A stretch of 64,000 nucleotides of DNA. Origin: Gemmatimonadota bacterium. Its GTDB lineage: Bacteria > Latescibacterota > UBA2968 > UBA8231. A program made the translations under genes and the position numbers. Under the pieces are notes generated by a model that had not been told where the DNA came from, did no database searches, and saw only the letters and a program-made list of their open reading frames with translations. Positions within the stretch are counted from its first letter, which is position 1. Each line of letters opens with the position of its first letter. The DNA is taken from positions 1 through 64,000 of the forward strand of contig JABJJN010000059.1 in NCBI GenBank assembly GCA_018660835.1, read 5' to 3'. Of this stretch, positions 29,190-48,326 are shown piece after piece.

Positions 29190-29258
29190 AGGATAGACAG
29201 GCGAATCACCGTCAACTTGAAATCACCGATCATTCGTCGGCTGCAATGCATGTTATGC
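29190..29258 (-). repeat. Half attC site (right half only)
   Basis: The stretch GGCTGCAATGCATGTTATGC at its right end plus the internal AGGCGAATCACCGTCAACTT match the right half of the local attC family. No matching left arm (ATAACGCA...) is found upstream within 130 bp. The array appears cut here. Confidence 0.7.
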
Positions 29259-29379
29259 AGTTCGCCAATTGCTCCATGAGATCCACGGGTCGATGGTCTG
29301 CAACAGCCTCACCCAAACGAGTCATTAGGAGTTCCCACATTGTCAGGTGTTCGCGACCTTGGCCCGGTATGGTTGTCAT
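29230..29379 (-). CDS. Small cassette ORF, 49 residues
   Basis: Encodes MTTIPGQGREHLTMWELLMT then RLGEAVADHRPVDLMEQLAN and CITCIAADE. It fills most of the interval between the half attC and the next attC, and its last codons run into the attC end, as is usual for cassette ORFs. AGGAG lies 15 nt upstream of the ATG, rather far. No family recognised; the acidic amphipathic helical look and two cysteines (CITC) are all that can be said. Confidence 0.45.
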   Translation of the reverse strand: MTTIPGQGREHLTMWELLMTRLGEAVADHRPVDLMEQLANCITCIAADE

Positions 29380-29453
29380 CCCTGTTTCTTGAGTCTCCTC
29401 AGTATTTGATGCTCAGAAATGCTCGCACGGATTTCTCTCACATGACTCTATCA

Positions 29454-29509
29454 CGATAACACGGCGATCACCTGCGAGCGAAGCGAGTCTGGTGCATCGC
29501 TTGTTATCA
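29454..29509 (-). repeat. attC site, short type (56 bp)
   Basis: Begins CGATAAC and ends GTTATCA. Arms GCGATCACC and GGTGCATCGC pair except for one unpaired G, the extrahelical base of folded attC. Much shorter than, and unrelated in its interior to, the 120-bp family. Belongs to the HigBA cassette. Confidence 0.85.
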
Positions 29510-29520
29510 AGCCGAATATC

Positions 29521-29826
29521 TCAACTCGCTCGTTTCAGAACTTGCACCTCGGTTTCCAGGCGCTCGCCAAGGTGGTCTTTCTCCAACTCCAAGTCATAAC
29601 GCATCTGGAGATTGAGCCAGAACCGCTCTGTCGTGGCAAAGTAGCGTGCTAGACGAAGTGCCGTATCCGCGGTGATGGCGCGTTTGCCATGGACGATCTC
29701 GTTGATTCGACGTGGTGGGACAGAGATATCCTTGGAAAGCCGGTACTGGCTTAGGCCCAGGGGCTCTAGAAACTCTTCCATCAGGATCTCACCCGGATGG
29801 ATCGGCGGCATTGTAGCTGTTGGCAT
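29521..29826 (-). CDS. higA: HigA-type antitoxin
   Basis: 101 residues. The N-terminal HPGEILMEEFLEPLGLSQYRL stretch and helix-turn-helix (SKDISVPPRRINEIVHGKRAIT) are diagnostic of HigA antidote proteins, with the conserved TTERFWLNLQ block after it. Binds and neutralises the upstream HigB and represses its own promoter. Starts 9 nt after the higB stop, so the order is toxin first, as in other higBA systems. Integron-cassette gene. Confidence 0.94.
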   Translation of the reverse strand: MPTATMPPIHPGEILMEEFLEPLGLSQYRLSKDISVPPRRINEIVHGKRAITADTALRLARYFATTERFWLNLQMRYDLELEKDHLGERLETEVQVLKRAS

Positions 29827-29835
29827 GCTGACCTC

Positions 29836-30117
29836 CTAGTGGTAGTCCACGATCTCTACATCAGCGGCGTGTCCCGCCTTCCACCGAAAACACACGCGCC
29901 ACTGATCGCTTATCCGAATGCTGTGTTGACCGCTACGATCTCCTGTGAGCTTCTCTAGGCGATTGCCAGGTGGCGACCGCAGATCCTGGATCGAGTCAGC
30001 AGCATCCAAGAGAAGCAGCTTCCTGAGGGCGGAGCGGGCTAGCGAGCCGGAGAATTTCCGTGAGCGCTCACGGCGGAAGACCTTCGCCGTCTCTCTATCA
30101 CGGAAGGATTCTATCAT
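29836..30117 (-). CDS. higB: HigB-type toxin (RelE/ParE superfamily)
   Basis: 93 residues. Ribosome-dependent mRNA interferase family: MIESFRDRETAKVFRRERSRKF at the start and the C-terminal QHSIRISDQWRVCFRWKAG...VEIVDYH, with the basic and aromatic residues expected for HigB. No Shine-Dalgarno sequence; the predicted transcription start is only a few nt before the ATG, so the mRNA may be leaderless. Paired with HigA. Confidence 0.94.
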   Translation of the reverse strand: MIESFRDRETAKVFRRERSRKFSGSLARSALRKLLLLDAADSIQDLRSPPGNRLEKLTGDRSGQHSIRISDQWRVCFRWKAGHAADVEIVDYH

Positions 30118-30125
30118 TGTCGTCT

Positions 30126-30164
30126 ATAATAACGCGACGCAATATTAACGACAAGCGTTATTAT
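30126..30164 (-). promoter_or_regulatory. higBA promoter with flanking operator dyad
   Basis: On the minus strand, TTGTCG (30154-30149) and TATTAT (30131-30126) are spaced 17 bp. The promoter is bracketed by a perfect 10-bp inverted repeat, ATAATAACGC ... GCGTTATTAT (arms 30126-30135 and 30155-30164), which fits a HigA-HigB operator. The predicted +1 is about 7 nt past the -10 box, at or just before the higB ATG. Confidence 0.75.
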
Positions 30165-30276
30165 CTCTCTGACTGCCACTTCATGCGAGAATCCGTGAGT
30201 CAGGGAGACCGCGAGTCGATGATGCAGATGGGACATGATTCGTTACTGACTTCAATTTTTGCACGAATAGCGATCT

Positions 30277-30397
30277 TGATAACGCACGAATCAGCTGCGG
30301 ACGGATCACCGTCGAGTCGGAACAACCAAATGAGATAGGCGAAACATCGTCAACTAAAGAAGAACCGATGGCCCGTCAGCTGCATTCGATGTTATGC
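30277..30397 (-). repeat. attC site, 121 bp
   Basis: Starts TGATAACGCACGAATCAGCTG and ends GCTGCATTCGATGTTATGC. Arms CGAAT-CAGCTG and CAGCTGCATTCG pair with one extrahelical G. Same family as 35119-35240. Belongs to the TetR cassette. Confidence 0.93.
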
Positions 30398-30431
30398 GCT
30401 TTTCGATTCTTCTTCTCAGACGTGTAAACAA

Positions 30432-31043
30432 TCAACCCGGATAACTCGACCTCACCTTCAGTGACTCCAGATGTTGCATCGCAACACCGGAGGCGTTCTT
30501 GACCACCTTGGCTGGGGCGACGGCTCGGATCATGACGAACAGACCCAAGACAGCTGCTGTGAAGAAACTCGACTCCTTTGCCACATCGACGGAGCCCTTG
30601 AGGTCCCCTGTCTCCTTGGCGTTTCCGAGCGCCTGCGTGAAAGCACTCGAAATCCGGGCAAAGTAGCGCGCAACAAACTCGGAGCCGCTGGGATCGGTTG
30701 GCCCAAACTCGACGGCCGTATTGCACAGCAGACAGCCACGGCCCGCTGCGGGGCCCGTGCTGGCCTTCGCAAAGAACTCGAACAGGGCGACAATCTCAGC
30801 CGCACCGGCGTTGGGTGCTTGCAGAGGACCAAAGTTTCGCTCCACGACCTCATCGTCGTAGCGCCCCAAGGCAGCATCAAAGAGAGCCTGCTTGCTGCCG
30901 AACTCGGCGTACAGGCTGTATCGGTTGACCCCGAGTTCCTCCACAAGCATCTGGGTCGATGTGCCCGCGAACCCATAGTCGCGAAAGATCTCCATTGACT
31001 TCGAAATCAGAACGTCACGGTCGTAAGTCTTTCGGCGGCCCAT
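30432..31043 (-). CDS. TetR family transcriptional regulator
   Basis: 203 residues from the ATG at MGRRKTYDRDVL, with GAGGAG 3 nt upstream. N-terminal TetR helix-turn-helix (SMEIFRDYGFAGTSTQMLVEELGVNRYSLYAEFGSKQALFDAAL) and an all-helical ligand domain containing a Cys pair (GRGCLLCNTAVEF). Divergently transcribed from the DUF1330-like gene 93 bp away, so it probably controls that promoter. Carried in an unusually large cassette (about 2.1 kb to the next attC). Confidence 0.92.
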   Translation of the reverse strand: MGRRKTYDRDVLISKSMEIFRDYGFAGTSTQMLVEELGVNRYSLYAEFGSKQALFDAALGRYDDEVVERNFGPLQAPNAGAAEIVALFEFFAKASTGPAAGRGCLLCNTAVEFGPTDPSGSEFVARYFARISSAFTQALGNAKETGDLKGSVDVAKESSFFTAAVLGLFVMIRAVAPAKVVKNASGVAMQHLESLKVRSSYPG

Positions 31044-31135
31044 TAGCTCCTCATGGTTGACATTCAACTTGTGGCACTTTATATCTAACACATCAGTTAG
31101 TTATAAGTCCACCCATAACGACATGGAGATCAGCC

Positions 31136-31435
31136 ATGGCCGAGAAAACCACGCTCGTCGTCACCGCGCAACCGAACCCCCAGGAGATGGAATCGGTACA
31201 AGAGTATCTACACGGGGTGCTGCCGCTGCTAACCGGAGCCGGCGGCAAGGTGGTCAAGCGCCTAAGAACGGACAAGGTCATCCATGGGAATCCCAGTGGG
31301 ATGACACTGGTGATGGACTTCGACTCAGAGGACGCCATCACCGGGATGTTTGAGTCAGACGACTATGCTGCTCTGGTGCCGGTCCGCGATCGGGGCTTTT
31401 CAGAGATGAACATCTTGCTGACGCAGGAGATGTAG
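31136..31435 (+). CDS. Small ferredoxin-fold protein (DUF1330/antibiotic-biosynthesis-monooxygenase-like)
   Basis: 99 residues. The pattern of a dimeric alpha/beta barrel monomer is visible: TLVVTAQPNPQEMESVQEYLH, then MTLVMDFDSEDAITGMFESDDYAALVPVRDRGFSEM. GGAG at 7 nt precedes the ATG. The likely target of the adjacent TetR regulator, as many such pairs are. Specific substrate unknown. Confidence 0.75.
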   Translation: MAEKTTLVVTAQPNPQEMESVQEYLHGVLPLLTGAGGKVVKRLRTDKVIHGNPSGMTLVMDFDSEDAITGMFESDDYAALVPVRDRGFSEMNILLTQEM

Positions 31436-31628
31436 CAACTCAGTCTTCCCGAACCTGCTCACGGTTCGTTGAGCAACACCTCGGTCACAGAGGGCGCAGT
31501 GAGAGCTGTAATGATCATTGCCCAGCGCGTCTTGAGAGAGAAGCGTATTCACAATGTCTACGGATTAGGGCCTTGCAAGCGGCGCGACGTGAGTTAGCCA
31601 TTCTCAACCCATATAGGTCTTTCATATC

Positions 31629-32159
31629 ATGCAAAAAACCACCGATTCCGTGTTCGGATTTCTCGCTGGCAAACCGGTCATCTGGGTTGTTGCCGCGTTG
31701 TGGGCCGTCACCAATGCGCTGATGACCCCGTTGCTGTTCAAGCTGCGCGCTTTGTCGGGAACGATGATCCCTGACGTCACGCCGCTCCACGATGCAGCTT
31801 TCCTGACAACCGTGTTCGCGGCGTACGGGCCGGAAGGCATGGAAATGTATCGCCAGGTGGCCTTGCTCGACTGGTTCTATCCGGCCGGATATGCCCTTTT
31901 CTGGGGTGCCTTGATCTTCATTCTGTTCCGCTCCTCACGCATTCGCAATCTGGCCTGGCTACCGGTGCTGGCCGCAGCATGTGACTATGCCGAGAACCAC
32001 TATCTGGATCTCTCAGCGTCGAACATCACCAACATCGATCCGGCGGCGGCGTCCACGTCCGGCACCATCGTTCTTCTCAAGATGCTGTGCATCGCATCCA
32101 GTGTTGGCCTGATCATCTATGGCCTGATCCGCTGGAACGCCGCCAGAAAGGCTGGCTAG
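31629..32159 (+). CDS. Multi-pass membrane protein, unknown function
   Basis: 176 residues with four hydrophobic stretches (about 12-32, 78-97, 101-115 and 137-160). No family was recognised. It follows the DUF1330-like gene by 193 bp in the same direction and, unusually for the array, runs against the main cassette orientation. May be in the same cassette as the TetR pair since no attC lies between them. Confidence 0.75.
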   Translation: MQKTTDSVFGFLAGKPVIWVVAALWAVTNALMTPLLFKLRALSGTMIPDVTPLHDAAFLTTVFAAYGPEGMEMYRQVALLDWFYPAGYALFWGALIFILFRSSRIRNLAWLPVLAAACDYAENHYLDLSASNITNIDPAAASTSGTIVLLKMLCIASSVGLIIYGLIRWNAARKAG

Positions 32160-32412
32160 GGGTCACCAATGTCGCCGTCTGCGGGACGTAGAAGGTCCTC
32201 GCGGAGCAGATGCACGCCGGAAGATCCGCATCCCTTCACCCTTGGCGAACGAGCCGATCTCTACCATGCCCATCACTTCGGAGTCTCGAAGTATCTCCTG
32301 CAGCGCAGACACTGCCGCCTCGAGTTACGTGCCATCCTGCTGCAAGGCCGCTCCGGTCTGGACCGAACTCTATCACGGCTCTCCTAGGCAGCTTCCGCTC
32401 AATCCGGACTCA
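32160..32412. other. Spacer without recognisable gene
   Basis: The 253 bp between the membrane protein and the next attC carry no ORF with a ribosome-binding site or family motif. A 72-codon plus-strand frame exists but is Arg/Ser-rich and unsupported. Confidence 0.5.
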
Positions 32413-32507
32413 GCATAACGCAGTTTCAGCCGTGGACAGATTCACCGATTGCCCTTGATCAAGCGAACGAGAAAGACGAAACACCGTCAGCTCAACACAT
32501 GTTATAG
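32413..32507 (-). repeat. attC site, 95 bp
   Basis: Starts GCATAACGCAGTTTCAGC and ends GTCAGCTCAACACATGTTATAG. Interior shares the CACCGTCAGCTC and GAGAAAGACGAA elements of the longer family, but is about 26 bp shorter. Belongs to the dehydrogenase cassette. Confidence 0.88.
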
Positions 32508-32613
32508 CAACCCTGATCGCTTTCCATTCACCTCGTGCCCAGCGTATTACGGCTCTCGACACACTCGACCGTCGAGGCTTCGACTCTGCCCGTGTGCCTG
32601 GGATTGAGGGCGA

Positions 32614-33600
32614 TCAAGGTAGGACCACGAGCTTCCCTGACGCCTCGCCGCTCTCCATGTATGCGTGGGCCTCCTGGATCTCATCCATCCTGAACTGACG
32701 ATGAACAGGTACGGTGGCCTTCCCCGCAGCCACTGAATCCAGGAAAGCCTGAAGCGCCTCCTGCGGCAGGTCGCTAGCATCGCCGCCATAGGCTGTCAGC
32801 CGGACGCCGCTCGGGAGGTAGTCAATGGGGTAGAACTCCTTCACGATCCACTCGTTTGACAGCATTCCCGTGAAGCAGACGACACCGTGGACTCGAGTCG
32901 AGTGAAGCGTATCGGGAAGCGTGGGCGTCCCGATCAACTCCAGTGCACAATCCACACCCTCAGGCAGGATCGCTCTCACTTGTTCGCTCACCGTCCCCCG
33001 ATCGATCAACACGTGATCAACGCCGACCTCGTGGAGCGCCGCTTCCTTCGAGGAACTCCGTGTAGTGGCCAGGACCGTCATGTCTCTCTGCTTGGCCAGC
33101 ACGGCTGTGGCCATTCCGATCGACGAAGTACCGCCGCGAATAAGGAGCGACTGCCCCGGTTGACCATCGAGTCCTACCGTCAGTGATCCATAGGCCGTCT
33201 GAAGCATTTCCGGAACTGCGCCGACAGTACCCCAGTCCAACTCGCTCTCGAAGCGGATCACCTGAAGGACTGGGACACAGGTATACTCTGCATACCCACC
33301 ATCGAACGTGCGGCCCATACCGCCCATCATAGTGGCGACCTGCTGCCCTTCAGCAAATTCCCCACCGGGACACTGAGCCACAATACCTGCCGCCTCAATG
33401 CCAAGGACTCTTGGAAACACGACTCCATCGGCCAGGCCGAGACGTGTATGGAGCTCGGACCGATTCAACCCAAACGCCATCACCCTTATCAGAACCCAGC
33501 CTGGCTCTGGGACTGGCACAGCGATGTCTCGAAGCTCCAGTGACGACGGTGGTCCAGGCTCGTCCAGCACGACGGCCCGCATCATCTCAGCCAATTCCAC
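32614..33600 (-). CDS. Zinc-binding-type MDR dehydrogenase (quinone oxidoreductase-like)
   Basis: 328 residues. N-terminal GroES-like domain (MRAVVLDEPGPPSSLELRDI...GLNRSELHTRLG...PRVLGIEAAGIV) and a Rossmann domain with SLLIRGGTSSIGMATAVLAKQ. Lacks the Cys-rich structural zinc loop, so it fits the quinone oxidoreductase branch. The start may be GTG 33600 or one of two ATGs at 33585 and 33582. Carried on an integron cassette; suggests detoxification or redox adaptation. Confidence 0.88.
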   Translation of the reverse strand: MELAEMMRAVVLDEPGPPSSLELRDIAVPVPEPGWVLIRVMAFGLNRSELHTRLGLADGVVFPRVLGIEAAGIVAQCPGGEFAEGQQVATMMGGMGRTFDGGYAEYTCVPVLQVIRFESELDWGTVGAVPEMLQTAYGSLTVGLDGQPGQSLLIRGGTSSIGMATAVLAKQRDMTVLATTRSSSKEAALHEVGVDHVLIDRGTVSEQVRAILPEGVDCALELIGTPTLPDTLHSTRVHGVVCFTGMLSNEWIVKEFYPIDYLPSGVRLTAYGGDASDLPQEALQAFLDSVAAGKATVPVHRQFRMDEIQEAHAYMESGEASGKLVVLP

Positions 33601-33624
33601 ACCTCAGGTCTTGGGGTCATAGGG

Positions 33625-33747
33625 CTATAACGCAGGGTTGAGCTGCGGCCAGACTCGCGTCTGCATTGGACAACCGGCCCAGACCAGCGAACCACTGACC
33701 CGACAAAGAATCACCAATAGAGCCATCTGCTACAACCCATGTTATGA
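33625..33747 (-). repeat. attC site, 123 bp
   Basis: Starts CTATAACGCAGGGTTGAGCTG and ends CTGCTACAACCCATGTTATGA. GGGTTG-AGC pairs with GCTACAACCC leaving one extrahelical T. Belongs to the serine-hydrolase cassette. Confidence 0.92.
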
Positions 33748-33830
33748 CCAACTCGACTCCCATCCGGGTTTCAGGAACGCTTCCCTTGCCGGCTCACTGT
33801 TGAGTCTGTCGATTTGCCAGGCCCAGAGTG

Positions 33831-34979
33831 TCAGTCCAGGCATGCGGCGTGCGCCAGAGGCGGCATTCGCTTCATGAATTTCCAGGGATTCCTGGGTTCC
33901 AGTTGAGAAAAGAGCATGTATATCAGATCTGCTTTCCGATCAATCCAGAAGAACGTGGTATTCGCACCGGCCCAATTGGCTTCGCCAACGCTGCCCACCT
34001 GGCCCATCAACACCGGGTCGCGCACGACGCCGAATCCCAGTCCGTAGCCTTTCCCGGGATTGCCCGGATGTAACTCGGGCTTCAGATGATCCATGAGCAT
34101 GAGCCGAACGGTCGCGGGCATAAGGATCCTCTCGCCGTCCAGTTCTCCGCCATTCAGAATCATCTGGCAGAAACGCAGATAGTCGATGGCCGTCGACGTG
34201 GCTCCCTGCCATTCAGCAGGTTCGTCAGTGGCAACTGTGAGCCTCTGGTTCGTCGTCCAATCATAGAGTTTCGCGAAGCGATCCAGCTTCTCAGTTGGCA
34301 CACCACGGCGGGTGTCCATCATCCCAAGTGGAGAGAGGATCTTCTCGTGGATGAATTCGTCGAATGAGAGACCGGAGACGGTCTCTACCAAGTACGGTAA
34401 GAGACTATATGAGGGATGGTAGTTGTAGCCCTCGCCTGGTTGGTACTCCAGTGGTACAGTTGCCCACCTTGCCAACATCTCTTCGCGCGTGAGACCAGGC
34501 CGCGCTACTTCCGCTGCCTGATGCAGTGTCAGTCCGGCAGTGTGCCTGAGTAGATCTTGAATCGTCGGCCCACTGTTGGGCGGCTCGAGTTGTGGGTCAT
34601 CTGCAGTTCCAGCGACGTTCACCTGGACGTCCTTGAACTGTGGCAGATACTCGGACACCGGATCGGTCAGTAGGATCTTTCCCTCTTCGTAGAGCATCAT
34701 GGTCGCCACACTCGTGATCGGCTTGATCATCGAGGCAATCCGGCAGATCGTGTCCGGTCTCATCGGCAGGTTGTTCTCGAGATCCCGCCAGCCGACGCTT
34801 TCCAGATGGGCGACCTTCCCGTGTCGCATCACAGCAGTGGTTATGCCAGCCGCTTTTCCATCATCGACGTAGCCCTGCATGATCGGAGCGATGCGGTCGA
34901 GACGCTCTGATGACAGACCTACCGCCTCTGGAGATGCCGTCGGGAGAGCACCACGGGGACTGGCTGTTCGTGAGTCCAT
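33831..34979 (-). CDS. Serine hydrolase, class C beta-lactamase-related (esterase type)
   Basis: 382 residues from the ATG at MDSRTASPRG, preceded by AAGGA. The S-x-x-K nucleophile motif is RIASMIKPITS and the Tyr-x-Ser element YHPSYSLLPYLVE; the third motif region is WAGANTTFFWIDR. The YHP-S and W-x-G features are typical of EstB-like esterases rather than true beta-lactamases. No signal peptide is clear at this start; an alternative upstream start (35066) adds a Cys-containing leader. Not evidence for drug resistance by itself. Cassette gene. Confidence 0.88.
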   Translation of the reverse strand: MDSRTASPRGALPTASPEAVGLSSERLDRIAPIMQGYVDDGKAAGITTAVMRHGKVAHLESVGWRDLENNLPMRPDTICRIASMIKPITSVATMMLYEEGKILLTDPVSEYLPQFKDVQVNVAGTADDPQLEPPNSGPTIQDLLRHTAGLTLHQAAEVARPGLTREEMLARWATVPLEYQPGEGYNYHPSYSLLPYLVETVSGLSFDEFIHEKILSPLGMMDTRRGVPTEKLDRFAKLYDWTTNQRLTVATDEPAEWQGATSTAIDYLRFCQMILNGGELDGERILMPATVRLMLMDHLKPELHPGNPGKGYGLGFGVVRDPVLMGQVGSVGEANWAGANTTFFWIDRKADLIYMLFSQLEPRNPWKFMKRMPPLAHAACLD

Positions 34980-35118
34980 CCTCTTCCTTGCTCCGATGTG
35001 GGTTCCTGTGGCTGGGCGAGTGCCTGATGATGCGAAGCATACCCGGGAGGCACATGACAGCAACACTATTCCGACGGGCCTACCCCTTGTTCAACCCTCA
35101 GGCAGCAGCTGCCGCTTG

Positions 35119-35240
35119 TCATAACGCACGAATCAGCTGCGGACAGATTCACCGATTGCTTTGGACAACTGAAAGAGAAAGGCGAATCAGCGCCAAACTT
35201 AGGAAGGCTGATCATCCGTCTGCTGCATTCGATGTTATGT
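35119..35240 (-). repeat. attC site, 122 bp
   Basis: Starts TCATAACGCACGAATCAGCTG and ends CTGCTGCATTCGATGTTATGT. Very like the site at 30277. Belongs to the alpha/beta hydrolase cassette to its right. Confidence 0.93.
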
Positions 35241-35263
35241 GAACATCCACTCTTCATCGATAG

Positions 35264-36040
35264 TCACGTGGCGTTGACGATTTCGGCCAGGCATTCGTCA
35301 AGATGACGATTGAACGTCTCTGGATCATCAAGCATGACGAAGTGTCCAACGTCCTCGATCTCTCTGACGTCGAAAGTTGGTAAACGAGGAGCGAGCTGAT
35401 GAAGTTGACCAAGCCCATCGTCATCTCGCTTCTGCTGGATTGTTCGGACTGGCACTCGAAGGCGACGCACCGAATTCTCGAAACACGTTGAGCCCCACTC
35501 AGAGATGGCCAATCGAGCTCCCACGGCCACATCCATCGACTGGGCGGCCATCGCCTCTGCGAATACAGCTTGCTCGGGATGAGACTCGAGGTCAAACATG
35601 CCCTGCGAGATGTCCTTCATCCGGGCCTCGAAGTCGGAACGAAGCTCAGATGCATCGTAAGGGTCGCCATAGAAGTCGAAGAACGAATCTGCGCCCACAA
35701 CGCCTATGACTCTGTTGGGTCGCGATAGAGCCGCCTCGACGGCAACGGGTCCACCCATGGAATGGCCAACCAGGACGGCAGCCTTCACATCAAGTGCATC
35801 CAGGACACATGCAACGTCCTCGCCGAACGCCTCCATCGTCCAGGTGTCTCGATCACTGGCCGATTCTCCATGTCCCGCAAGGTCCAGCGCCACGGCAGTG
35901 TACGACGTGCCGAAGTGGAGCATCTGATGGCTCCAGTGTCGACGTTGACAACACCATCCGTGTATGAACACGATGCCGACGTCACCCGAACCACAGACTT
36001 CGAATGAGATACGAACACCGTCGCTTGAGGTCGTTTCCAT
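35264..36040 (-). CDS. Alpha/beta hydrolase
   Basis: 258 residues. Oxyanion/nucleophile elbow GHSMGGPVAVEAA and catalytic histidine in EDVGHFVMLDDPETF, with GWCCQRRHW after the first strand. AGGAG at 3 nt from the ATG (METTSSDG). General ester or haloalkane-type hydrolase; specificity not readable. Second alpha/beta hydrolase of the array, the other being at 37745. Confidence 0.9.
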   Translation of the reverse strand: METTSSDGVRISFEVCGSGDVGIVFIHGWCCQRRHWSHQMLHFGTSYTAVALDLAGHGESASDRDTWTMEAFGEDVACVLDALDVKAAVLVGHSMGGPVAVEAALSRPNRVIGVVGADSFFDFYGDPYDASELRSDFEARMKDISQGMFDLESHPEQAVFAEAMAAQSMDVAVGARLAISEWGSTCFENSVRRLRVPVRTIQQKRDDDGLGQLHQLAPRLPTFDVREIEDVGHFVMLDDPETFNRHLDECLAEIVNAT

Positions 36041-36052
36041 ACTCTCCTATTC

Positions 36053-36178
36053 ACATAGCGCGCGAATCACCTGTGGCCAGATTCTCCGATTGTCTTCTGA
36101 CGACCGATCCAACCAGTCGAATCGGCACTGAGACGGCGAACCACTGACAAAACCATCAGGTGCATTCGATGTTATGTG
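36053..36178 (-). repeat. attC site, 126 bp, left core degenerate
   Basis: Starts ACATAGCGCGCGAATCACCTG (AGC instead of AAC) and ends CAGGTGCATTCGATGTTATGT. CGAAT-CACCTG and CAGGTGCATTCG pair with one extrahelical G. The AGC change at the left core may weaken recombination of this cassette boundary. Confidence 0.9.
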
Positions 36179-36282: not shown

Positions 36283-37479
36283 TCATTGGCTCTCTGAAAG
36301 GGCGCTCAGAGACATGCGGTGAGCCCTGGCGATGAACTCTTGCAACGTTAGGTCGTGCTGAGATCGCAGGTATTCGTCCATGACAGCGCGATCCCCGCTC
36401 CCAGATACAAAGCCAACGAGGCTTGTCAGGAACCTTCCGATGATAGCACGGTTCACGTCCTCGGAAAGCGGCTCAAAGCCGTCAGAGATGTCTCCGGATC
36501 CGATGGCATCAATGTCGGCGACTGCCCGAACCGTGGTCCCCGCCGAGAAGTCGATGCTGCGCAAGTCCAGGGTCTTGATCTCTGGGCTCCTCGCTGTCCG
36601 GAAAGCCACCGCTCGGTCCGCAACATCGTAGACAATGCTCCACTGACGCGTCCTAGGAAACTGCATGTCAGCGAGAAGGTTGAACGCGTATTCTACCGAG
36701 TTCTGATGTGTGGTCGGATCGAAGTGGGCCAATCCATCTGCGCCGATCAGGAAGCGCTGATCGCTTCCGGAATCAAACCAGCGATACAGCGGACCGAGCA
36801 AACCCGCGGACGCAGCATATCTCTTCATCTCGACGGCATAGGGAATGTTGCACAGAACAGGCACGGGCAGAGATTGCTCGGAATGCACGACAACTCGACC
36901 GTCCAAGAATTCTATGGTGGCAGCTGCACCATTAGCGTCCGCCACGAAGAGATGATAGTTGGCCATCGACACCGGAGAGAACGTAGCCCTCGGATCGATA
37001 TTGATATCGTCTACGTGGCTGAGCACCTCGCTCACACTGGCGTAGCTATCGAGTTGATATTGGATCCACTGGTGGATGAACATGACGGGCTTGTTGGGAG
37101 ATCGTGGGAAGCGGCTCTCCCCAAGCGCCATCTCAGCGATGACCAGTCCTGCCTCATTGACACCACCGTCGGGAAACCCTTGCCCCAAGATGGTGAACGT
37201 TGCCGATCCGAAGCGTGACGTCCATGAGAGAGGCAAAGCCCTGGCGTTGGTCAGGCCCAAATCAGTTGCGCACCGACTGTGTCTCGTCTGGCCCCGCGGG
37301 TTAATCAGTAAGGAGCCTGGCGTATAGAAGTCTTGATCGAGGTTGTGTCCAACGATCACCGTCGGGCCGTCCTTTATCAGGAACGTGGAGCATGCGTTGG
37401 CTGAACGAGCAGCCAAGACACCAACCAGCAGCAGCACAATCCTGATACTATGCGACCTTGGCGCATGACCAATGACCGA
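36283..37479 (-). CDS. Exported linear-amide C-N hydrolase (choloylglycine hydrolase/penicillin V acylase family)
   Basis: 398 residues from the ATG at MSVIGHAPRS, with AAGGAGG 5 nt upstream. A signal peptide (RIVLLLVGVLAARSANA) ends just before Cys, giving the N-terminal nucleophile of the Ntn fold (CSTFLIKDGPTVIVGHNLDQDF). Later WTSRFGSATFTILGQGFPDGGVNEAGLV and the LIADMQFP-type segments fit the family. Cleaves amides such as bile-acid conjugates, penicillin V or N-acyl homoserine lactones; which is not known. Largest single-gene cassette in the array. Confidence 0.88.
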   Translation of the reverse strand, partial: SVIGHAPRSHSIRIVLLLVGVLAARSANACSTFLIKDGPTVIVGHNLDQDFYTPGSLLINPRGQTRHSRCATDLGLTNARALPLSWTSRFGSATFTILGQGFPDGGVNEAGLVIAEMALGESRFPRSPNKPVMFIHQWIQYQLDSYASVSEVLSHVDDINIDPRATFSPVSMANYHLFVADANGAAATIEFLDGRVVVHSEQSLPVPVLCNIPYAVEMKRYAASAGLLGPLYRWFDSGSDQRFLIGADGLAHFDPTTHQNSVEYAFNLLADMQFPRTRQWSIVYDVADRAVAFRTARSPEIKTLDLRSIDFSAGTTVRAVADIDAIGSGDISDGFEPLSEDVNRAIIGRFLTSLVGFVSGSGDRAVMDEYLRSQHDLTLQEFIARAHRMSLSALSESQ

Positions 37480-37609
37480 CATCGGAGCCTCCTTCCTGAC
37501 TCGAGGCAGTTGATGTAAGTCAGCATTGACGGAATGCATGGAGCATGTCAAGTCTGCGATCTCAGAAAGTCGCGCATGGACCGATTACGCAGAGGCGCTG
37601 ACTGCCCAC

Positions 37610-37729
37610 ACATAACGCAGGGATGACCTGCGATGAACCACCGTCAGCTACGGATCACTGACTGCAGCGTAGCGTCCCCGGTGAACCTGAGCAACACTGT
37701 TAACCGGTCTGGTCAATCCCATGTTATCA
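37610..37729 (-). repeat. attC site, 120 bp
   Basis: Starts ACATAACGCAGGGATGACCTG and ends GGTCAATCCCATGTTATCA. GGGAT-GACC against GGTCAATCCC with one extrahelical T. Belongs to the second alpha/beta hydrolase cassette. Confidence 0.92.
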
Positions 37730-37744
37730 ATGGGCTTCTCTCCT

Positions 37745-38542
37745 CTACTTCTTGAGGGCAGAGACGGAGGATAGGAAGTCTCGGACCTCAGAAACGAACC
37801 TGTCCGGATCGGTGTCATGGAGACCATGACCAAACCCCATCCACTCACTCACGCTTGAGAACTCGTACACCGAGAAGAGCTCCTTACGGTCGGCCTCACT
37901 CATCACGCCCTTCTCTCCCAACATGATCATCGACGGGCACTTCACCTGAGGAAGCCACTCCCGGAAGTCGTACCCGACAGCGCCCGCCACATACTCCTCC
38001 ATCGGAACAGCACTCATGCGATGGTGTTCCTCTGCCCGGGGATAGGCCTCGTGTGGCGAAAGTCCATCGGCCAGCTTCTTCGAGATCTTCTCTTCGATGG
38101 ACAGTCGATAGTAGTCACGGATGTTGACCCAGAATTCATCGGCGCAAACTCTCTCCTGATCGTATATCGGCGGATCCTCGAGCAGCATCGCCTTAACCGA
38201 GACACCGGACTTGGCGGCTGCGGGAATCGCTACCATTGCCCCCATCGAGTGACCGATGAGAGCAACTGGTCCCAGATCAAGCGCATCGATGAGTTTGGCG
38301 ATGTCTTCTCCCAGGTCGTCGGCCCAGTTGTAACCCTGATCCGGCTTGGAGGTGAGACCTCGTCCTCTCAGATCGACAGCGAAGACATGTGCAAACTCGG
38401 CCAGACGAGGACCAACGGCGTCCCAATTGTCTGCACTACCTGTCATGTGATGCAGGAGGATGAGAGGCAAGCCTGAGTCTCCCCACTCCTTCACATGAAG
38501 GGTCTGGCCGTTTGCCTCCACATATCGATGATGGGCATTCAT
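37745..38542 (-). CDS. Alpha/beta hydrolase
   Basis: 265 residues. HHRYVEANGQTLHVKEWGDSG start, nucleophile elbow VALIGHSMGAMVAIPAAAKSG, and catalytic His near MGFGHGLHDTDPDRF. Fits the haloperoxidase/epoxide-hydrolase-like group. ATGA overlap with a frame that reads through the upstream attC (38539-38883). Cassette gene. Confidence 0.9.
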   Translation of the reverse strand: MNAHHRYVEANGQTLHVKEWGDSGLPLILLHHMTGSADNWDAVGPRLAEFAHVFAVDLRGRGLTSKPDQGYNWADDLGEDIAKLIDALDLGPVALIGHSMGAMVAIPAAAKSGVSVKAMLLEDPPIYDQERVCADEFWVNIRDYYRLSIEEKISKKLADGLSPHEAYPRAEEHHRMSAVPMEEYVAGAVGYDFREWLPQVKCPSMIMLGEKGVMSEADRKELFSVYEFSSVSEWMGFGHGLHDTDPDRFVSEVRDFLSSVSALKK

Positions 38543-38636
38543 GGATGATCAGGTCCGGGCTCGGAGTCGCTAGGAATCGCCATAGCTGGTCTCGATGAAA
38601 AACGACCAAGGTTGAGGCTGGCACAGGCCTTGGTCT

Positions 38637-38759
38637 TGATAACACAGGGTTCAGCAGCGGACAGTGCCGCTGCCCGACACCTGGCACTGTAGCCGCGCAG
38701 GTGAGCCGCCGCCGGCTTCCACGCTACCGTCAGCCCGCCTGCTGCAACCCATGTTATCT
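38637..38759 (-). repeat. attC site, 123 bp
   Basis: Starts TGATAACACAGGGTTCAGCAG and ends CTGCTGCAACCCATGTTATCT. GGGTT-CAGCAG pairs with CTGCTGCAACCC leaving one G. Near-identical ends to the site at 40551. Belongs to the small membrane protein cassette. Confidence 0.92.
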
Positions 38760-39190
38760 CGAGTTCCAGACCACCTGCGGCGCAGATCCTCAGCTGCCCT
38801 ACCCGATGCAGTTGCAGTTTTGTCAGGCAGTTGGCTGTTGCTGTTCGCAGTTCATCAAGAGCTGTTCGTAGTTCATTAGTCATCGAGCGAGAATTCTACA
38901 CGGACTGATCGCAGTGACCCGTGTATGCGCCATTGGAATAGGACTGAAAGAGCGCGCGACCATCATAGTCCATCATCTGCTGACACCTGCTGTAGAGTGG
39001 TGTTCGATCATCCGGGAGGCTTCAGATGTTGATACCCAATCAGCGTCAATGGTCTGACTCCCCGCTTTCTAGTCGGATGGTGTTCATGACGGATACCGTG
39101 GATCCGATGGAGCAAGTGGGCAACGTTGATGGTGGGATCCGAGGAGAGTATGTCTCGTGCGAGTACGGCAGTCCTCTGCTTGCGACGGGG
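38760..39190. other. Cassette interior without confirmed gene
   Basis: About 430 bp between the attC and the small membrane gene. A minus-strand frame starting at 38883 (MTNELRTALDELRTATANCL, with an ELRTA-x-DELRTAT repeat) runs through the attC to 38539 and is discussed as a finding. A plus-strand frame at 39026 with GGGAGG before its ATG overlaps the membrane gene and is left uncalled. Confidence 0.4.
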
Positions 39191-39442
39191 CTACCTCAGC
39201 ATGACATAAGCAAGGTTCAGCCCCATCACGAGGGCGATCACTATGAAGGCTGCCCGAAAGAACCGATGCTGCGATCTGAATGCGACGAACTCTCTCTCAA
39301 TCTCTTCCTCTGTGAGCGCTAAGCCATCCGCTCTGCAGATCGAACCGCCCGCGGCCACGAAGTCCTTCAGCCGCCTCACACCGATCTGTTCTGCTACGCT
39401 CCAGCCGACACCAATCGCAAGAAGCCCAACAATGAGGGTCAT
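39191..39442 (-). CDS. Small two-helix membrane protein
   Basis: 83 residues from ATG 39442 (MTLIVGLLAIGVGW), which has GGAGGAG 9 nt upstream; an in-frame TTG at 39478 is less likely. Two hydrophobic helices (residues 2-17 and 64-82) enclose a charged loop (EEEIEREFVAFRSQHRFFR). No known family. Small membrane proteins are common integron cassette payload. Confidence 0.75.
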   Translation of the reverse strand: MTLIVGLLAIGVGWSVAEQIGVRRLKDFVAAGGSICRADGLALTEEEIEREFVAFRSQHRFFRAAFIVIALVMGLNLAYVMLR

Positions 39443-39526
39443 ATCCCTTACTCCTCCTACTACAACATCGCGATGCAATCGGCCAAGGGGCCCGCACTCT
39501 GTCGGATCAACGCTCGCAGCCAGTCA

Positions 39527-39650
39527 TGATAACGCAAAGATGAGCCGCGACCAGATACGCCGTCTTCACTGGTCAACCGACTCAACCCACCGAGCCACCT
39601 GTCCAGCCAGAATCACCAGTAAGTATCGTCGGCTCCATCTTATGTTATCA
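39527..39650 (-). repeat. attC site, 124 bp
   Basis: Starts TGATAACGCAAAGATGAGCCG and ends CGGCTCCATCTTATGTTATCA. AAGAT-GAGCCG pairs with CGGCTCCATCTT with one extrahelical G. Belongs to the HepT/MntA cassette. Confidence 0.92.
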
Positions 39651-39782
39651 ATTCGGCGTTGCTTGATCGGCGCGGCAAAACTGATCCACGGAATAAGTAT
39701 GCCTTGACACAACTTGGATCGCATCCGGATTGCTTTGAAGTGGTGTATCAAGGCCTCCGCCAGAGACCATCCGCGACTGACT

Positions 39783-40127
39783 CTATGCGAGGCGCCTCAA
39801 ATGATCGTCGCATTCCTGTCGGAGCACTTCGACATCTCGCTCGACAATCGCCCAGACGATACTATCATCGACTGTAGGATACTGGTGAGTCAGTTGGTTG
39901 CGGAAGTCGATAATTCGGCGAGCATGGCTGATGGCACTGAAGATCTCATCGGATGAGTGGCTCAGGGCAAGCAACGCCTCCCCGATGATCGTAAACTCTC
40001 GTTCAACCGCTGACCGAACGAGCCGTGTAGTCGAGTATTCCTCAAGCGTCCGCCCCTCGACGGCCGATGTGATCGCCTCGCACGCCTCGATCACGTCCGA
40101 GAGGTACGCCCTCGAATCACGCGGCAT
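39783..40127 (-). CDS. hepT: HEPN-domain toxin of the HepT/MntA type
   Basis: 114 residues, all-helical. The R-x4-H-x-Y motif (FRNQLTHQYPTVDD) of HepT RNases is present near the middle, with the typical RSAVEREFTIIGEALLAL helix before it. Antitoxin MntA AMPylates HepT in the best studied pair. The start overlaps the mntA stop by 11 nt (40117-40127). Confidence 0.93.
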   Translation of the reverse strand: MPRDSRAYLSDVIEACEAITSAVEGRTLEEYSTTRLVRSAVEREFTIIGEALLALSHSSDEIFSAISHARRIIDFRNQLTHQYPTVDDSIVWAIVERDVEVLRQECDDHLRRLA

Positions 40128-40428
40128 ACAACATCTGCTTAGTACGCTCGATGTCTTGGGCGATGTATCGGTTCCTCACCGCCCCTTCGACGACCAAGTC
40201 GACTTCGACTGTGAGAATCCTCCGCAACTCGTCTAGAAGCTCGAAGTATGCATCCACACGCGTGTAGGGTTCCATCGGCCCGAACTCGACTAGTAAGTCA
40301 ACATCGCTGTCACCGTCCGGAGAGAAATCATCACGTAGCGCGGAGCCGAATACATGAAGGCGCGCGACACCGTGGCGCTTGCATGCTGCCTCTATCGCCA
40401 CCATTTGATCTGCAATTATGGCCGTCAT
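40117..40428 (-). CDS. mntA: Minimal nucleotidyltransferase antitoxin MntA
   Basis: 103 residues. GS-x10-D-x-D active site: ARLHVFGSALRDDFSPDGDSDVDLLVEF, as in MNT-type antitoxins. The ATG at 40428 was used; a TTG directly before it is in frame. Here the antitoxin gene comes first, followed by hepT. A self-contained stability module in the array. Confidence 0.93.
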   Translation of the reverse strand: MTAIIADQMVAIEAACKRHGVARLHVFGSALRDDFSPDGDSDVDLLVEFGPMEPYTRVDAYFELLDELRRILTVEVDLVVEGAVRNRYIAQDIERTKQMLYAA

Positions 40429-40550
40429 CAAGTAATCTCAGTGTCCATCGTTCGAAATATCGCAATTTGGGCGGTCGTGTCCCTGTGTTCCCCAAATCTA
40501 CAATGTGAAGGGCACCTGCGCCTCAGCCTCCTCTGAGAGCAATTCTCAGT

Positions 40551-40673
40551 TGATAACACAGGGTTCAGCAGCGGACAGAACCACCGTTCAACGCCCGATT
40601 CCCAATACAATCATCTGACACGCCGATCGCTCTGGATCCACCATCAGCCCCTCTGCTGCAACCCATGTATATG
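40551..40673 (-). repeat. attC site, 123 bp, right core degenerate
   Basis: Starts TGATAACACAGGGTTCAGCAG and ends CTGCTGCAACCCATGTATATG (GTATA in place of GTTAT). The inner arms still pair with one extrahelical G. Belongs to the sulfotransferase cassette. Confidence 0.88.
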
Positions 40674-40745
40674 GCGAGCACCATTGTCCTTTTAGGACTC
40701 TCTGTGCCGTGAGCCGCGACACCAAACCAATCAATGGAACCTGTA

Positions 40746-41567
40746 TCAGAAGTCGAAGAGCCAGCTGTCACGATCGTAGCCGTACCGTTCAAAATCCTCT
40801 CGATACATCTCGTAGACTCGTCCGGCCAGCTCGGCGTCGTACACCGCTGCATGATAGATCTTCACGGTGGGGTTGAACCGCTCGTCGAGCGAACTAGCGG
40901 CGGGCGGTGCACCCAAGCGTCGGAGTATCTCGGCAAAGTCGCTGCCGAAGTTCTCGACGCATCCTGTGCAGTCGTAGTCGATCTGATCAGGATAGAGAGC
41001 CCGCGACTGCAGATTCCAGTGACCGTCCCACTGCTCGCGAGCCTGTCCTTCCAGGTAGGTCACGAAGTCTCGGAATGACACCATGCCGGCGGGGCGCCCA
41101 TCACGCACCGGGTAGTCGAAGTGTTCGCGGATCTCCTGCTGGAAGGGCATGTACTGCTCGTCCTTCCAGTTCAGGATCTTCGACTTGTAGGCCGAGAACA
41201 GACGGTAATACGGATTGCGGACGAAGCAGAATCGCAACCACTGAGGCGACATCAAAGCCTCGACTGCCTCATCCTCCGTGAAGTCGATGAGACTGGGAAC
41301 GAAATCTTGTCCCTCTTCCGTCCTGTCATGGACCTGACCCGGGTTCGCTGGGAGTTCATATCCCTCGAGGCGGTGCAAGTCAGCCTTGATCTTGGTGCTG
41401 ACGACCTTTCCGAGGGACAGATAGACGTATCTGTGTCGGTGCGAGGCATAGCAGCCGTAGCCGAGGCAGGTCGAGCGCCCCCGATTGGCCCGCACGAACT
41501 CACGCACGGCAAGCGACTCAGGCTGTGGTCCACCCATGACGTCAGCCGCCACGACGAACGATGCCAA
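40746..41567 (-). CDS. Sulfotransferase family protein
   Basis: 273 residues. The PAPS-binding segments are visible: YVYLSLGKVVSTKIKADLHR (5' phosphosulfate loop, with serine and threonine) and RFCFVRNPYYRLFSAYKSKI (3' phosphate-binding arginine and serine). This pattern matches the Sulfotransfer_2/carbohydrate sulfotransferase group. No signal peptide. The acceptor is unknown; decoration of surface polysaccharide would fit a mobile cassette gene. Confidence 0.85.
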   Translation of the reverse strand: MASFVVAADVMGGPQPESLAVREFVRANRGRSTCLGYGCYASHRHRYVYLSLGKVVSTKIKADLHRLEGYELPANPGQVHDRTEEGQDFVPSLIDFTEDEAVEALMSPQWLRFCFVRNPYYRLFSAYKSKILNWKDEQYMPFQQEIREHFDYPVRDGRPAGMVSFRDFVTYLEGQAREQWDGHWNLQSRALYPDQIDYDCTGCVENFGSDFAEILRRLGAPPAASSLDERFNPTVKIYHAAVYDAELAGRVYEMYREDFERYGYDRDSWLFDF

Positions 41568-41636
41568 TCCACACAGCGAGAACCCCTACGTTTAGATCCA
41601 TAGTCACATTCTTTACTACTACTCAGTCTCATTGAG

Positions 41637-41759
41637 CCATAACGCAAAGATGAGCAGCTGGCGCTGCCAGCAGCGATACGATACTAGGAAACCGAATGTG
41701 CGTTGGTGTCCCCGCGCAATTCTGAGCCACTGCCCAGCCTGCTCCATCTCTTGTTATAC
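41637..41759 (-). repeat. attC site, 123 bp
   Basis: Starts CCATAACGCAAAGATGAGCAG and ends CTGCTCCATCTCTTGTTATAC. AGAT-GAGCAG pairs with CTGCTCCATCT leaving one G. First attC counted from the integrase. Belongs to the BrnTA cassette. Confidence 0.92.
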
Positions 41760-41762
41760 GCA

Positions 41763-41790
41763 TTGACATTGTATATACGTTAACTATTCT
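41763..41790 (+). promoter_or_regulatory. brnTA promoter
   Basis: TTGACA (41763-41768), a 16-bp spacer and TATTCT (41785-41790). The perfect palindrome GTATATAC sits in the spacer and could be the BrnA operator. The predicted start of transcription (about 41797) coincides with the brnT ATG, so the mRNA would be leaderless. The promoter begins 4 nt after the attC end. Confidence 0.65.
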
Positions 41791-41796
41791 TGGTGC

Positions 41797-42096
41797 ATGG
41801 ACATCGAATACGCCTCCCAAGGCATTCTCTTTGAGTGGGACAGCGATAAGGCCGCTGAAAATCTGGCCAAACACGGTGTCACCTTTGAGGCCGCCTGTGA
41901 AGTGTTCTTCGATCCTTTCCTGCACGTCGCCGACGAACAGGTTATTGATCACGAAGTGCGTGATACGATCATCGGTATGACCACTCGATGGAAGGTGCTG
42001 TTCGTCATCTACACGGTCCGTGTGGGAGACCGCTTTCGTCTCATTTCAGCACGGGAAGCCACCCCGATGGAAAGGCAGCAGTATGAAGGCCAATGA
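41797..42096 (+). CDS. brnT: BrnT-type toxin
   Basis: 99 residues. The family pattern FEWDSDKAAENLAKHGVTFEAACEVFFDPF followed by a C-terminal VGDRFRLISAREATPMERQQYE segment is clear; BrnT is a RelE-like ribonuclease. Opposite in direction to most cassettes, yet between attC sites, so it must use its own promoter. The stop overlaps the brnA start by 14 nt. Confidence 0.94.
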   Translation: MDIEYASQGILFEWDSDKAAENLAKHGVTFEAACEVFFDPFLHVADEQVIDHEVRDTIIGMTTRWKVLFVIYTVRVGDRFRLISAREATPMERQQYEGQ

Positions 42097-42361
42097 ACTC
42101 AAGAAGCGGCTGCGCAAAGACCGGCCCATGGTCTCGATCAGTATGCGGATACCGGAGGATGTCATTGACGATCTCAAGCGTGTGGCTCCCCAACTCGGTT
42201 TCTCCGGATATCAACCCCTGATTCGCGCCTACATCGGCCAGGGACTGAGAGAGGATCTCGCGCGTCTCGAATCACCCGCACTCCAGAGCTTCGTCGAAAA
42301 CCTGCGCCAGCGGGGTGTCGACGAGGACGTGATTAGCCAGGCCCTCACCGATTCCAACTAG
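42083..42361 (+). CDS. brnA: BrnA-type antitoxin
   Basis: 92 residues from the ATG at MKANELKKRLRKDRPM; the frame is open 63 nt upstream, but those codons are inside brnT. Ribbon-helix-helix-like core (VSISMRIPEDVIDDLKRVAPQLGFSGYQPLIRAYIGQGL) binds DNA and BrnT. Toxin-antitoxin order as in other brnTA operons. Confidence 0.93.
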   Translation: MKANELKKRLRKDRPMVSISMRIPEDVIDDLKRVAPQLGFSGYQPLIRAYIGQGLREDLARLESPALQSFVENLRQRGVDEDVISQALTDSN

Positions 42362-42427
42362 CTGTCTGATTCCACTCCACGGTTGAGATATACGGCGACC
42401 TGTCAACTTTCGTCGCGGTCTCCGTCC

Positions 42428-42883
42428 CTACTGCGAGCTTGCTTGCGGCATTGGCGACCTATGGTATTGCAGCATTCGCCATTTGCCTTCCTCGAAATAG
42501 TAGGTTGCTGTGTACCTAAGGAGCCGTGTGGTGGACGTTTTGCCATGGTGCTTTTCTGTTCGTACCAGTTTGCCAGCTACGAGACCGACGTTTCCCACAA
42601 CTTTGTACTGGGCATCATCTATGACGATGTCGAACTCTTCAAACCTGCCAAAAAACTCGGACACCATCGCCCGATAGGTCTCGCAATCCACCGATCGAAT
42701 TGAACTTGAGTGCCCAAAACCCCGCGCACCACATTCAATCTCAAGAATCTCTTCGACATTGCCGTTGCTATAGCCGTCGAGTCGTCGCTGTTCCGCAGCA
42801 CGAAGACCGCTCTCATTGCGCTCTCCCAGCACAGGCGAAACTTGAAGCAGCAGAACTGCAATCCACCACACGTATCTGATCAC
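42428..42883 (-). CDS. Exported SnoaL/NTF2-like protein
   Basis: 151 residues. GTG start at 42883 with GAGGAGG 10 nt upstream. A signal peptide (WWIAVLLLQVSPVLG) precedes a NTF2-like cone fold (GYSNGNVEEILEIE...FGRFEEFDIVIDDAQYKVVGNVGLVAGKLVRT...TATYYFEEGKWRMLQYHRS). First gene after the integrase and so the most recently captured if insertion occurs at attI; no attC is visible between it and brnA, hence either its attC is lost or both share one cassette. Confidence 0.8.
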   Translation of the reverse strand: MIRYVWWIAVLLLQVSPVLGERNESGLRAAEQRRLDGYSNGNVEEILEIECGARGFGHSSSIRSVDCETYRAMVSEFFGRFEEFDIVIDDAQYKVVGNVGLVAGKLVRTEKHHGKTSTTRLLRYTATYYFEEGKWRMLQYHRSPMPQASSQ

Positions 42884-42908
42884 GAAGTATTCGCCTCCTC
42901 ATGTCCTT

Positions 42909-42915
42909 GTATAAC
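42909..42915 (-). other. Putative attI core site
   Basis: GTATAAC here (minus strand GTTATAC) lies just outside the first cassette gene and matches the ends of the attC sites (same GTTATAC as at 41753-41759). The attI accessory region would extend toward the integrase, 42916-43201. Placement is inference. Confidence 0.5.
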
Positions 42916-43201
42916 AATACAGTGAGCGGAACGTAGCATTTCCCGCCCCGCCATTATCCGTTCCTCCCCAAACCAACCGTCTCAGCCTGAACTCGGTCAA
43001 GTAGATCCTATGTGGATTCCAAATATCCACGTGAGAGCAGGGATATGCGGACGTCGTCAATCTTGCAGGATCGACTTCGCCGCGGCGGCATATCCTGGCC
43101 AGTGCCCGGATGTGCTGCCTTCCGGATATCCTCGGTTATGAAGTTGAGCAAGACGGCACGATCCTTGCCATCCCATCTGCAAAGACTCACGCGATGCGGG
43201 A
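42916..43201. other. Integrase leader region
   Basis: About 285 bp between the presumed attI core and the integrase start. Short frames exist on both strands but none shows a family motif. A cassette promoter (Pc) is expected here; I could not pick one with good spacing. Confidence 0.5.
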
Positions 43202-44458
43202 TTGGCGATGGCAGACAGAGACCTGGACCATTTTCACAGCTGGCTCCTGCAGTATCGGCCGATTGCCGGCGAAAAGGCGCCGCACATGGTTCGTTGGGTC
43301 GAGCGTTTCCTTCGCTCTCAACGTGGCCAGCATTTCGCCGACTGGCGAGATGCGCAGCGATCGTTCCTCACTGATCTTGGCGAGTCCGAACTGCAGGCAT
43401 GGCAGATCCGTCAGGCAGGTGACGCCATCACTCTTTATTGCGGCCAGTACTGTGTTAGAAATGAAACGGCATCGTTACCCTCGCCTAACAGCACGCCACC
43501 TGCGGCACCGTCTGAACTATTGAAGGAAATGGCGCGCTTGCTGCGCCTGCGCCACTATGCCCCGCGCACTGAACGGACCTACCTGGGTTGGGCACGGCGA
43601 TTCTTCCAGCATCGAGCCCCCTCGCCACAAACCCCGACGCCGGAGGAGTTGAAGGCCTATCTGAGTTACCTGGCCACCGACCGACGCGTGGCTTCAGCCA
43701 CGCAGAATCAGGCCTTCAACGCGCTGCTATTCCTTTTTCGACACGTCATCGGCACCGATGTGGGCGATATGGGTTCATCTATCCGAGCTCGGCGAGGACC
43801 GAAGTTGCCCGTCGTACTGACCCTTGACGAGACGCGGGCAATCCTTGGCCAACTTCAGGGGACAATGCGGCTCATGTTGGAGACGCTGTACGGCGGCGGC
43901 TTGCGTGTGTCCGAGTTGGTCGAGCTCCGTGTGAAGGACATCGATCTGGAGCCGCCTGCTCTCACCGTCAGAGGTGGCAAGGGGGATGCGGATCGAATCA
44001 CGTTGCTTCCGGATCGTGTCGTGACAGACCTTCGGCGTCATCTTCAGAAGGTGGGGCGCCTGCACCAACGCGACCTGCACGCGGGCCTCGGCCGGGCGCC
44101 GCTGCCCGGTGCCCTGAGTCGCAAGTATCCTGGTGCCGCAACAGAATTGGGCTGGCAGTTTGTCTTTCCATCCTCGCGGCTGGCGATGGATGAGGATCAC
44201 ATGGTGCGCCGCTGGCACGTGTCCGTAGCGAGCGTGCAGAAAGCGATGAAGAAGGCCGTTCGCGCCGCCGGCGTGAGCAAGTCCGCCTCGGTACACACAT
44301 TGCGCCACTCCTTTGCGACGCATCTACTGATTCAGGGCGTCGACATACGGCGGATTCAGGACCTGCTGGGGCATCGCAATCTGGAAACCACCATGATCTA
44401 CACGCACGTGCGCTTGTCTATGACGCCAGGGGTTCGCAGCCCGCTGGATGACTTGTAG
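43202..44458 (+). CDS. intI: Integron integrase
   Basis: 418-residue tyrosine recombinase. It has an N-terminal SAM-like core-binding domain (about 105-195, MARLLRLRHYAPRTERTYLG), and a catalytic domain with R in GLRVSELVELRV, HTLRHSFATHLL, GHRNLETTMIYTHV (active-site Arg, His, Arg, His, Tyr). The IntI-specific patch is present around residue 285-315 (HQRDLHAGLGRAPLPGALSRKYPGA), which separates IntI from XerC/D. The extra N-terminal 100 residues also occur in several environmental IntI. Transcribed away from the cassettes, as expected. Confidence 0.95.
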   Translation: MAMADRDLDHFHSWLLQYRPIAGEKAPHMVRWVERFLRSQRGQHFADWRDAQRSFLTDLGESELQAWQIRQAGDAITLYCGQYCVRNETASLPSPNSTPPAAPSELLKEMARLLRLRHYAPRTERTYLGWARRFFQHRAPSPQTPTPEELKAYLSYLATDRRVASATQNQAFNALLFLFRHVIGTDVGDMGSSIRARRGPKLPVVLTLDETRAILGQLQGTMRLMLETLYGGGLRVSELVELRVKDIDLEPPALTVRGGKGDADRITLLPDRVVTDLRRHLQKVGRLHQRDLHAGLGRAPLPGALSRKYPGAATELGWQFVFPSSRLAMDEDHMVRRWHVSVASVQKAMKKAVRAAGVSKSASVHTLRHSFATHLLIQGVDIRRIQDLLGHRNLETTMIYTHVRLSMTPGVRSPLDDL

Positions 44459-48251: not shown

Positions 48252-48275
48252 GCATACACCTGACTCACCATAATG
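48252..48275 (+). repeat. Direct repeat, right copy
   Basis: GCATACACCTGACTCACCATAATG; see 44477-44500. Similarity to the left copy continues weakly for about 25 bp. Confidence 0.8.
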
Positions 48276-48326
48276 ACGCCCTATCGTGCCTATCCACCGG
48301 CGTGCGCAAAAATGAGAGAATTCGTC

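Follow-up and report, generated by a model that had tools for sequence, protein, structure and literature searches.

The chromosomal integron of Vibrio cholerae, with its integrase VchIntIA and its VCR sites, is the described system that most closely resembles the locus reported here. In that integron, the intI gene diverges from the cassette array, attI lies beside intI, the attC sites are about 120 bp in length, the cassettes read away from attI, and toxin-antitoxin cassettes are carried in an array of well over a hundred units. A second point of comparison is provided by CALIN elements, in which attC clusters occur with no integrase. A third is a group of long integrases, clade 15 of Nemergut et al. 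2008 (PMC2426708); that paper describes these deltaproteobacterial enzymes as about 120 amino acids longer than other IntI proteins and terms the extra part a gene fusion. Integrons as such are widely distributed, and a 2021 review lists them in 14 phyla, Gemmatimonadota among them (PMC8618304), so that a remark in the first-pass annotation of this DNA, to the effect that integrons of such size are still little described outside Proteobacteria, was overstated.

The locus lies in a window of 64,000 nucleotides (the whole stretch of DNA analyzed), which forms the start of contig C7 in a genome bin of 7.09 Mb that is 93% complete with an estimated contamination of 7.98%. Judged from its sequence, it is almost certainly a sedentary chromosomal integron, with recombination predicted to be carried out by IntI on its attC and attI sites. 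All of the organizational features listed above for V. cholerae are shared by it, but the window's array comprises 12 units, including a distal remnant, its attC sites are less alike (nine of the 11 resemble each other, with 66% mean column identity), and the V. cholerae host is from a different bacterial group. Unlike CALIN elements, the locus has both intI and attI. Taken as a whole, it is an ordinary, real and nearly intact integron of a kind that is already well known, and the initial call of a complete chromosomal integron is supported alike by the integrase model and patch, a cassette-boundary test, a sequence-blind scan, stem covariation, a covariance model and a phylogenetic tree.

The integrase gene occupies positions 43202–44458 of the plus strand (with an alternative ATG at 43208), diverges from the minus-strand attC array, and encodes a protein of 418 amino acids. 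No other gene in the 7.09-Mb bin exceeds the cut-off of the integron-integrase model TIGR02249 (265 bits), on which IntI scores 355 bits. The protein aligns with VchIntIA (2A3V) at an E-value of 1.2e-65 and possesses all of the catalytic residues (R, K, H, R, H, Y), while its catalytic domain (43817–44413, plus strand) includes the IntI-specific patch KYPGAATELGW at residues 308–318; the diagnostic insertion noted at first reading is therefore present. In a quick tree of 56 proteins with long outgroup branches, the enzyme falls inside the IntI group with a support of 98, and XerC/XerD-type proteins from the same genome and the same class fall outside of it, in keeping with the first-pass annotation, which had assigned the enzyme to IntI and not to XerC/XerD. 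A subclade of long integrases has a support of 97 in this tree, where the window's enzyme groups with those of Desulfocapsa and Mariprofundus, the original clade-15 sequences of Nemergut 2008 not being part of the set. It is barely credible that the locus is not an integron but a gene cluster with repeats on which a recombinase of XerC/XerD-like or phage-like kind acts. Several other tyrosine recombinases do occur in the genome, but the IntI-specific patch, a position in the IntI clade apart from the genome's own Xer-type proteins, and the attC architecture with its extrahelical bases and cassette junctions (below) all run counter to this explanation, which is refuted by the TIGR02249 score, the cassette-boundary test and the tree.

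Eleven complete attC sites, all on the minus strand, were found between 29454 and 41759, along with one half site, and the earlier count is thereby confirmed. Nine of the sites are 120–125 bp in length. Among these, attC1 (41637–41759), attC3 (39527–39650), attC4 (38637–38759), attC7 (35119–35240), attC8 (33625–33747) and attC10 (30277–30397) were each recognized by boundary comparison, the sequence-blind scan and the covariance model, and attC2 (40551–40673, with one extra base in R''), attC5 (37610–37729) and attC6 (36053–36177, with its R' core mutated to GCT) by boundary comparison and the covariance model. The two remaining sites, attC9 (32413–32507; 95 bp, with a weak stem) and attC11 (29454–29509; 56 bp), were identified by boundary comparison and held out of the covariance model. 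At its distal end, the array terminates in a truncated attC (29190–29258, minus strand), seen in the sequence as an R''/L'' half with no R' half. Two or more attC sites that show the R''/L''/L'/R' architecture, extrahelical bases included, occur within 4 kb. A stray R''-like box, TTGATAACAGG, is also found at 36231–36238 of the minus strand, 60 bp before attC6; it has no R' partner and may be what is left of an older site. Given this box and the defects of attC2, attC6 and attC9, not every site need be active.

In the free circular form of a cassette, the opening bases (TTRRRY...) are paired with the cassette's own R'' box. Cassette starts in the window's array are the reverse complement of their own R'' boxes (p = 1.5e-5, from 200,000 permutations of the start/end pairing), with exact runs of 5–8 bases in nine of the 11 cassettes. 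In the other two, the mismatch is due to a single-base insertion (attC2) or a single-base substitution (attC6). The same rule places the attI crossover point (42909–42921, minus strand) at G/TTATAC, with the G at 42915, because TTATAC matches the R'' box GTATAA of attC1. Eleven cassettes are bounded by junctions made by recombination, and a distal twelfth cassette lacks half of its attC.

The folding of the sites was apparent in several further comparisons. A geometry scan, blind to sequence except for AAC/GTT, returned six sites with scores of at least 12, all of them on the minus strand within the array, and none in six shuffled 64-kb strands. In an alignment of the nine long sites, compensatory changes occur in 10 of 14 inner-stem pairs, a level reached by none of 500 shuffles, and 94% of stem cells pair, a signal that is lost when the partner is shifted by 1–3 columns. 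The first-pass annotation had proposed attC covariance modelling as a check, and a model built from the nine sites recovered both attC9 and attC11 at E-values of about 1e-8 and nothing else in the window; an Rfam search of the window returned no match. As in known attC sites, the extrahelical (bulged) bases sit on the R''/L'' arm. The textbook second extrahelical base is G, and in the window's sites, read on the bottom strand, it is C in most cases and A in two. This was dropped as a possible novelty, since C is common at this position in the arrays of other phyla and is evidently tolerated: attC_dfrA1 has it, T-N6-C sites recombine well (PMC3053210), and a G to C change in VCR carries little cost (PMC2727003).

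The cargo, with limits taken from the cassette boundaries and functions from Pfam, reads as follows from attI outward, all on the minus strand. Cassette 1 (41643–42914) carries a SnoaL-like ORF and, on the opposite strand, a BrnT/BrnA-type pair; cassette 2 (40557–41642) a sulfotransferase; cassette 3 (39533–40556) a MntA-type nucleotidyltransferase with a HepT-like partner; and cassette 4 (38643–39532) a 95-aa ORF to which no function was assigned. Alpha/beta hydrolases are encoded by cassette 5 (37616–38642) and cassette 7 (35125–36058), a choloylglycine-hydrolase-family protein by cassette 6 (36059–37615), a beta-lactamase-fold serine hydrolase (PF00144) by cassette 8 (33631–35124), and a member of the zinc-type alcohol dehydrogenase family by cassette 9 (32419–33630). 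Cassette 10 (30283–32418) combines a TetR regulator with divergent DUF1330 and 176-aa ORFs, cassette 11 (29460–30282) has a HigB/HigA-type toxin-antitoxin pair, and the twelfth, recognized from the sequence, is a remnant (29190–29459). The array therefore holds three toxin-antitoxin pairs. Three such systems in 12 units fit known chromosomal integrons. It had been stated that the cassettes read away from attI, and this is true of the principal ORFs but not of the BrnT/BrnA-type pair, the DUF1330 ORF or the 176-aa ORF, which are reversed.

As a mechanism, IntI would recombine the folded bottom strand of an attC with attI at 42915, so that circular cassettes would enter next to attI with their genes oriented away from intI, and recombination between two attC sites would lead to the excision or reshuffling of cassettes. 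By analogy with other integrons, the toxin-antitoxin pairs probably stabilise the array. A scan restricted to promoters of the consensus type found none near intI. A scan for LexA boxes of the E. coli type was likewise negative there, and LexA/SOS control of the gene was dropped as a candidate, the scan having relied on the E. coli consensus and being uninformative for SOS control.

One feature of the integrase bears on whether the system still operates. In VchIntIA, the T12'' base of the attC site is contacted by His240, His241 and Pro232 (PMC3053210). When aligned, the window's IntI has a Trp in place of His240 and no counterpart of Pro232, and its nearest relative, the IntI of the confamilial genome G005, is altered in the same way; elsewhere in the compared set, Trp at this position occurs in one Spirochaetales IntI only, where the Pro is retained. 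It is conceivable, although unlikely, that the locus is a fossil, with an array formerly built by IntI and an integrase or substrate recognition that has since become non-functional. The changed pocket would fit such a history, as would the defects in three of the 11 attC sites (attC2, attC6 and attC9), the truncated terminal attC, a sibling genome (G001) without an integron, and a frameshifted IntI, of another type, in G007. Against it, intI has an unbroken reading frame and retains all of the catalytic and patch residues, and most cassettes still have exact repeats at their junctions. Moreover, the pocket change is common to the G005 enzyme, at 57% identity, which points to long maintenance and not to decay.

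The sedentary integron, which is the preferred reading, has attC sites of a type that extends beyond its own array. The first-pass annotation held that the array evolved with its own attC family, and while the sites are indeed alike, searches with the covariance model found the same type on two other contigs of the genome as well as in the confamilial genomes G005, G007, G009 and G019. On contig C16 (L125, 6752–9385), three sites are present and the cassette starts again match R'', while contig C66 (L126, 8509–11358) has a decayed cluster; neither is accompanied by IntI, and both therefore resemble CALIN elements. Among 53 IntI loci of other lineages, matches to the model were marginal only (E 0.07–0.1). 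The type is therefore a property of the family and not of the array, and a family of sites private to the window's IntI is ruled out by these confamilial occurrences, including that in G007, which has another type of integrase. A near-identical attC with the same flanks was also seen in congeners, at 8362–8482 of L128 (G019) and 166–287 of L129 (G007), and represents an old shared cassette position.

FlgD-Ig and Por_Secre_tail domains adjoin the array, making an FCB-type host reasonable; they back the FCB-group affiliation that had been thought probable, with a reach that stops short of the phylum, and the bin contains no 16S sequence. The left flank, from 14.2 to 26.2 kb, shows synteny with G001, a genome of the same genus, with several genes at 82–92% protein identity, and the contig is therefore native to the lineage. 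Placement of the locus on a contaminant contig, from outside the stated host lineage, is thus very improbable: the contamination estimate and the unrelated IntI types of other confamilial genomes lend it something, but this synteny contradicts it, and both the nearest IntI and the same attC family are found within the same bacterial family. No mobile-element genes were seen beside the locus. G001 itself has no IntI above the cut-off and no attC of the window's type, and a simple empty site was sought there and rejected, because conservation is confined to the left flank; past the D-Ala ligase the two genomes differ, with no clean junction to be read. Across the family, IntI is present in only some genomes and belongs to at least two distinct types, one shared by the window and G005, the other found in G008, G011 and, as the frameshifted copy, G007; the gene must therefore have been acquired repeatedly or exchanged. 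To a lineage with scarcely documented integrons, the locus adds a well-bounded example, attC clusters that lack an integrase, and an attC type found across the family.

A heparinase/alginate-lyase-like gene lies 4 kb from intI (48273–50501, plus strand), with counterparts at 2869–5046 (minus strand) of L129 on contig C186 of G007 and at 3710–5855 of L145 on contig C11 of G001. It is 88% identical at the DNA level to the G007 gene, which belongs to another genus, while flanking genes are at about 65–70%. The G007 copy is flanked by short attC-like sites, its cassette ends match, and it is thus a cassette; chromosomal and cassette forms of the gene could exist side by side. It was rejected as a member of the window's integron, as no attC is found beside it there.

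The part of this otherwise ordinary integron that is unusual, and of interest to specialists as a modest structural insight, is the N-terminus of its integrase, which is about 100 residues longer than that of VchIntIA and, along with the T12'' pocket, distinguishes the two enzymes. The extra segment (residues 6–89; 43217–43468, plus strand) precedes the canonical core-binding domain (PF13495; residues 103–186; 43508–43759, plus strand), and its best reading, from sequence profiles and a structural model, is a second, SAM-like core-binding domain that arose by tandem duplication. AlphaFold2 predicted four helices in it, followed by the four of the normal domain (mean pLDDT 82, pTM 0.54). In a profile comparison, the segment scored 49.4 against the core-binding domain, while 150 column-shuffled controls reached at most 17.3 and segments of the catalytic domain about 9–10. 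The segment alone gave no direct match to PF13495, but some members do match that model directly, the Desulfatitalea protein at E 7.7e-6. Of the 47 IntI proteins that could be scored, 23 have a homologous segment, in a set that was retrieved by means of a long IntI and is therefore biased towards long forms; this distribution implies at least four changes on the tree.

The window's extra domain is likely the same feature as the clade-15 extension of Nemergut et al. 2008 (PMC2426708). The lengths are similar and the enzyme groups with Desulfocapsa integrases, but the host group is other than their Deltaproteobacteria, and what was called a gene fusion there is here identified as a duplicate core-binding domain. 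A partial coverage of the literature yielded no paper that names the extra part as such a duplication. The comparison suggests that duplication of the core-binding domain may explain the long-noted "fusion" of about 120 amino acids seen in some integrases, which is a specific and testable proposition. More tentatively, it is possible that two IntI architectures exist over several phyla, a single-clamp form, represented by the studied enzymes, and a double-clamp form with tandem core-binding domains that may have a different hold on attI or on folded attC stems; the window's IntI would be a double-clamp enzyme with a modified T12'' pocket. In the window's enzyme, further contacts with DNA or between subunits around the folded site are probably what the second copy provides, and this IntI and its attC sites offer a compact test system for the second clamp domain in single-strand attC recognition. 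Finally, the IntI proteins of L046 and L049, from Nitrospirota and Desulfobacteraceae bins, have, besides the extra domain, a long linker as well, with 165–182 residues preceding the normal core-binding domain.
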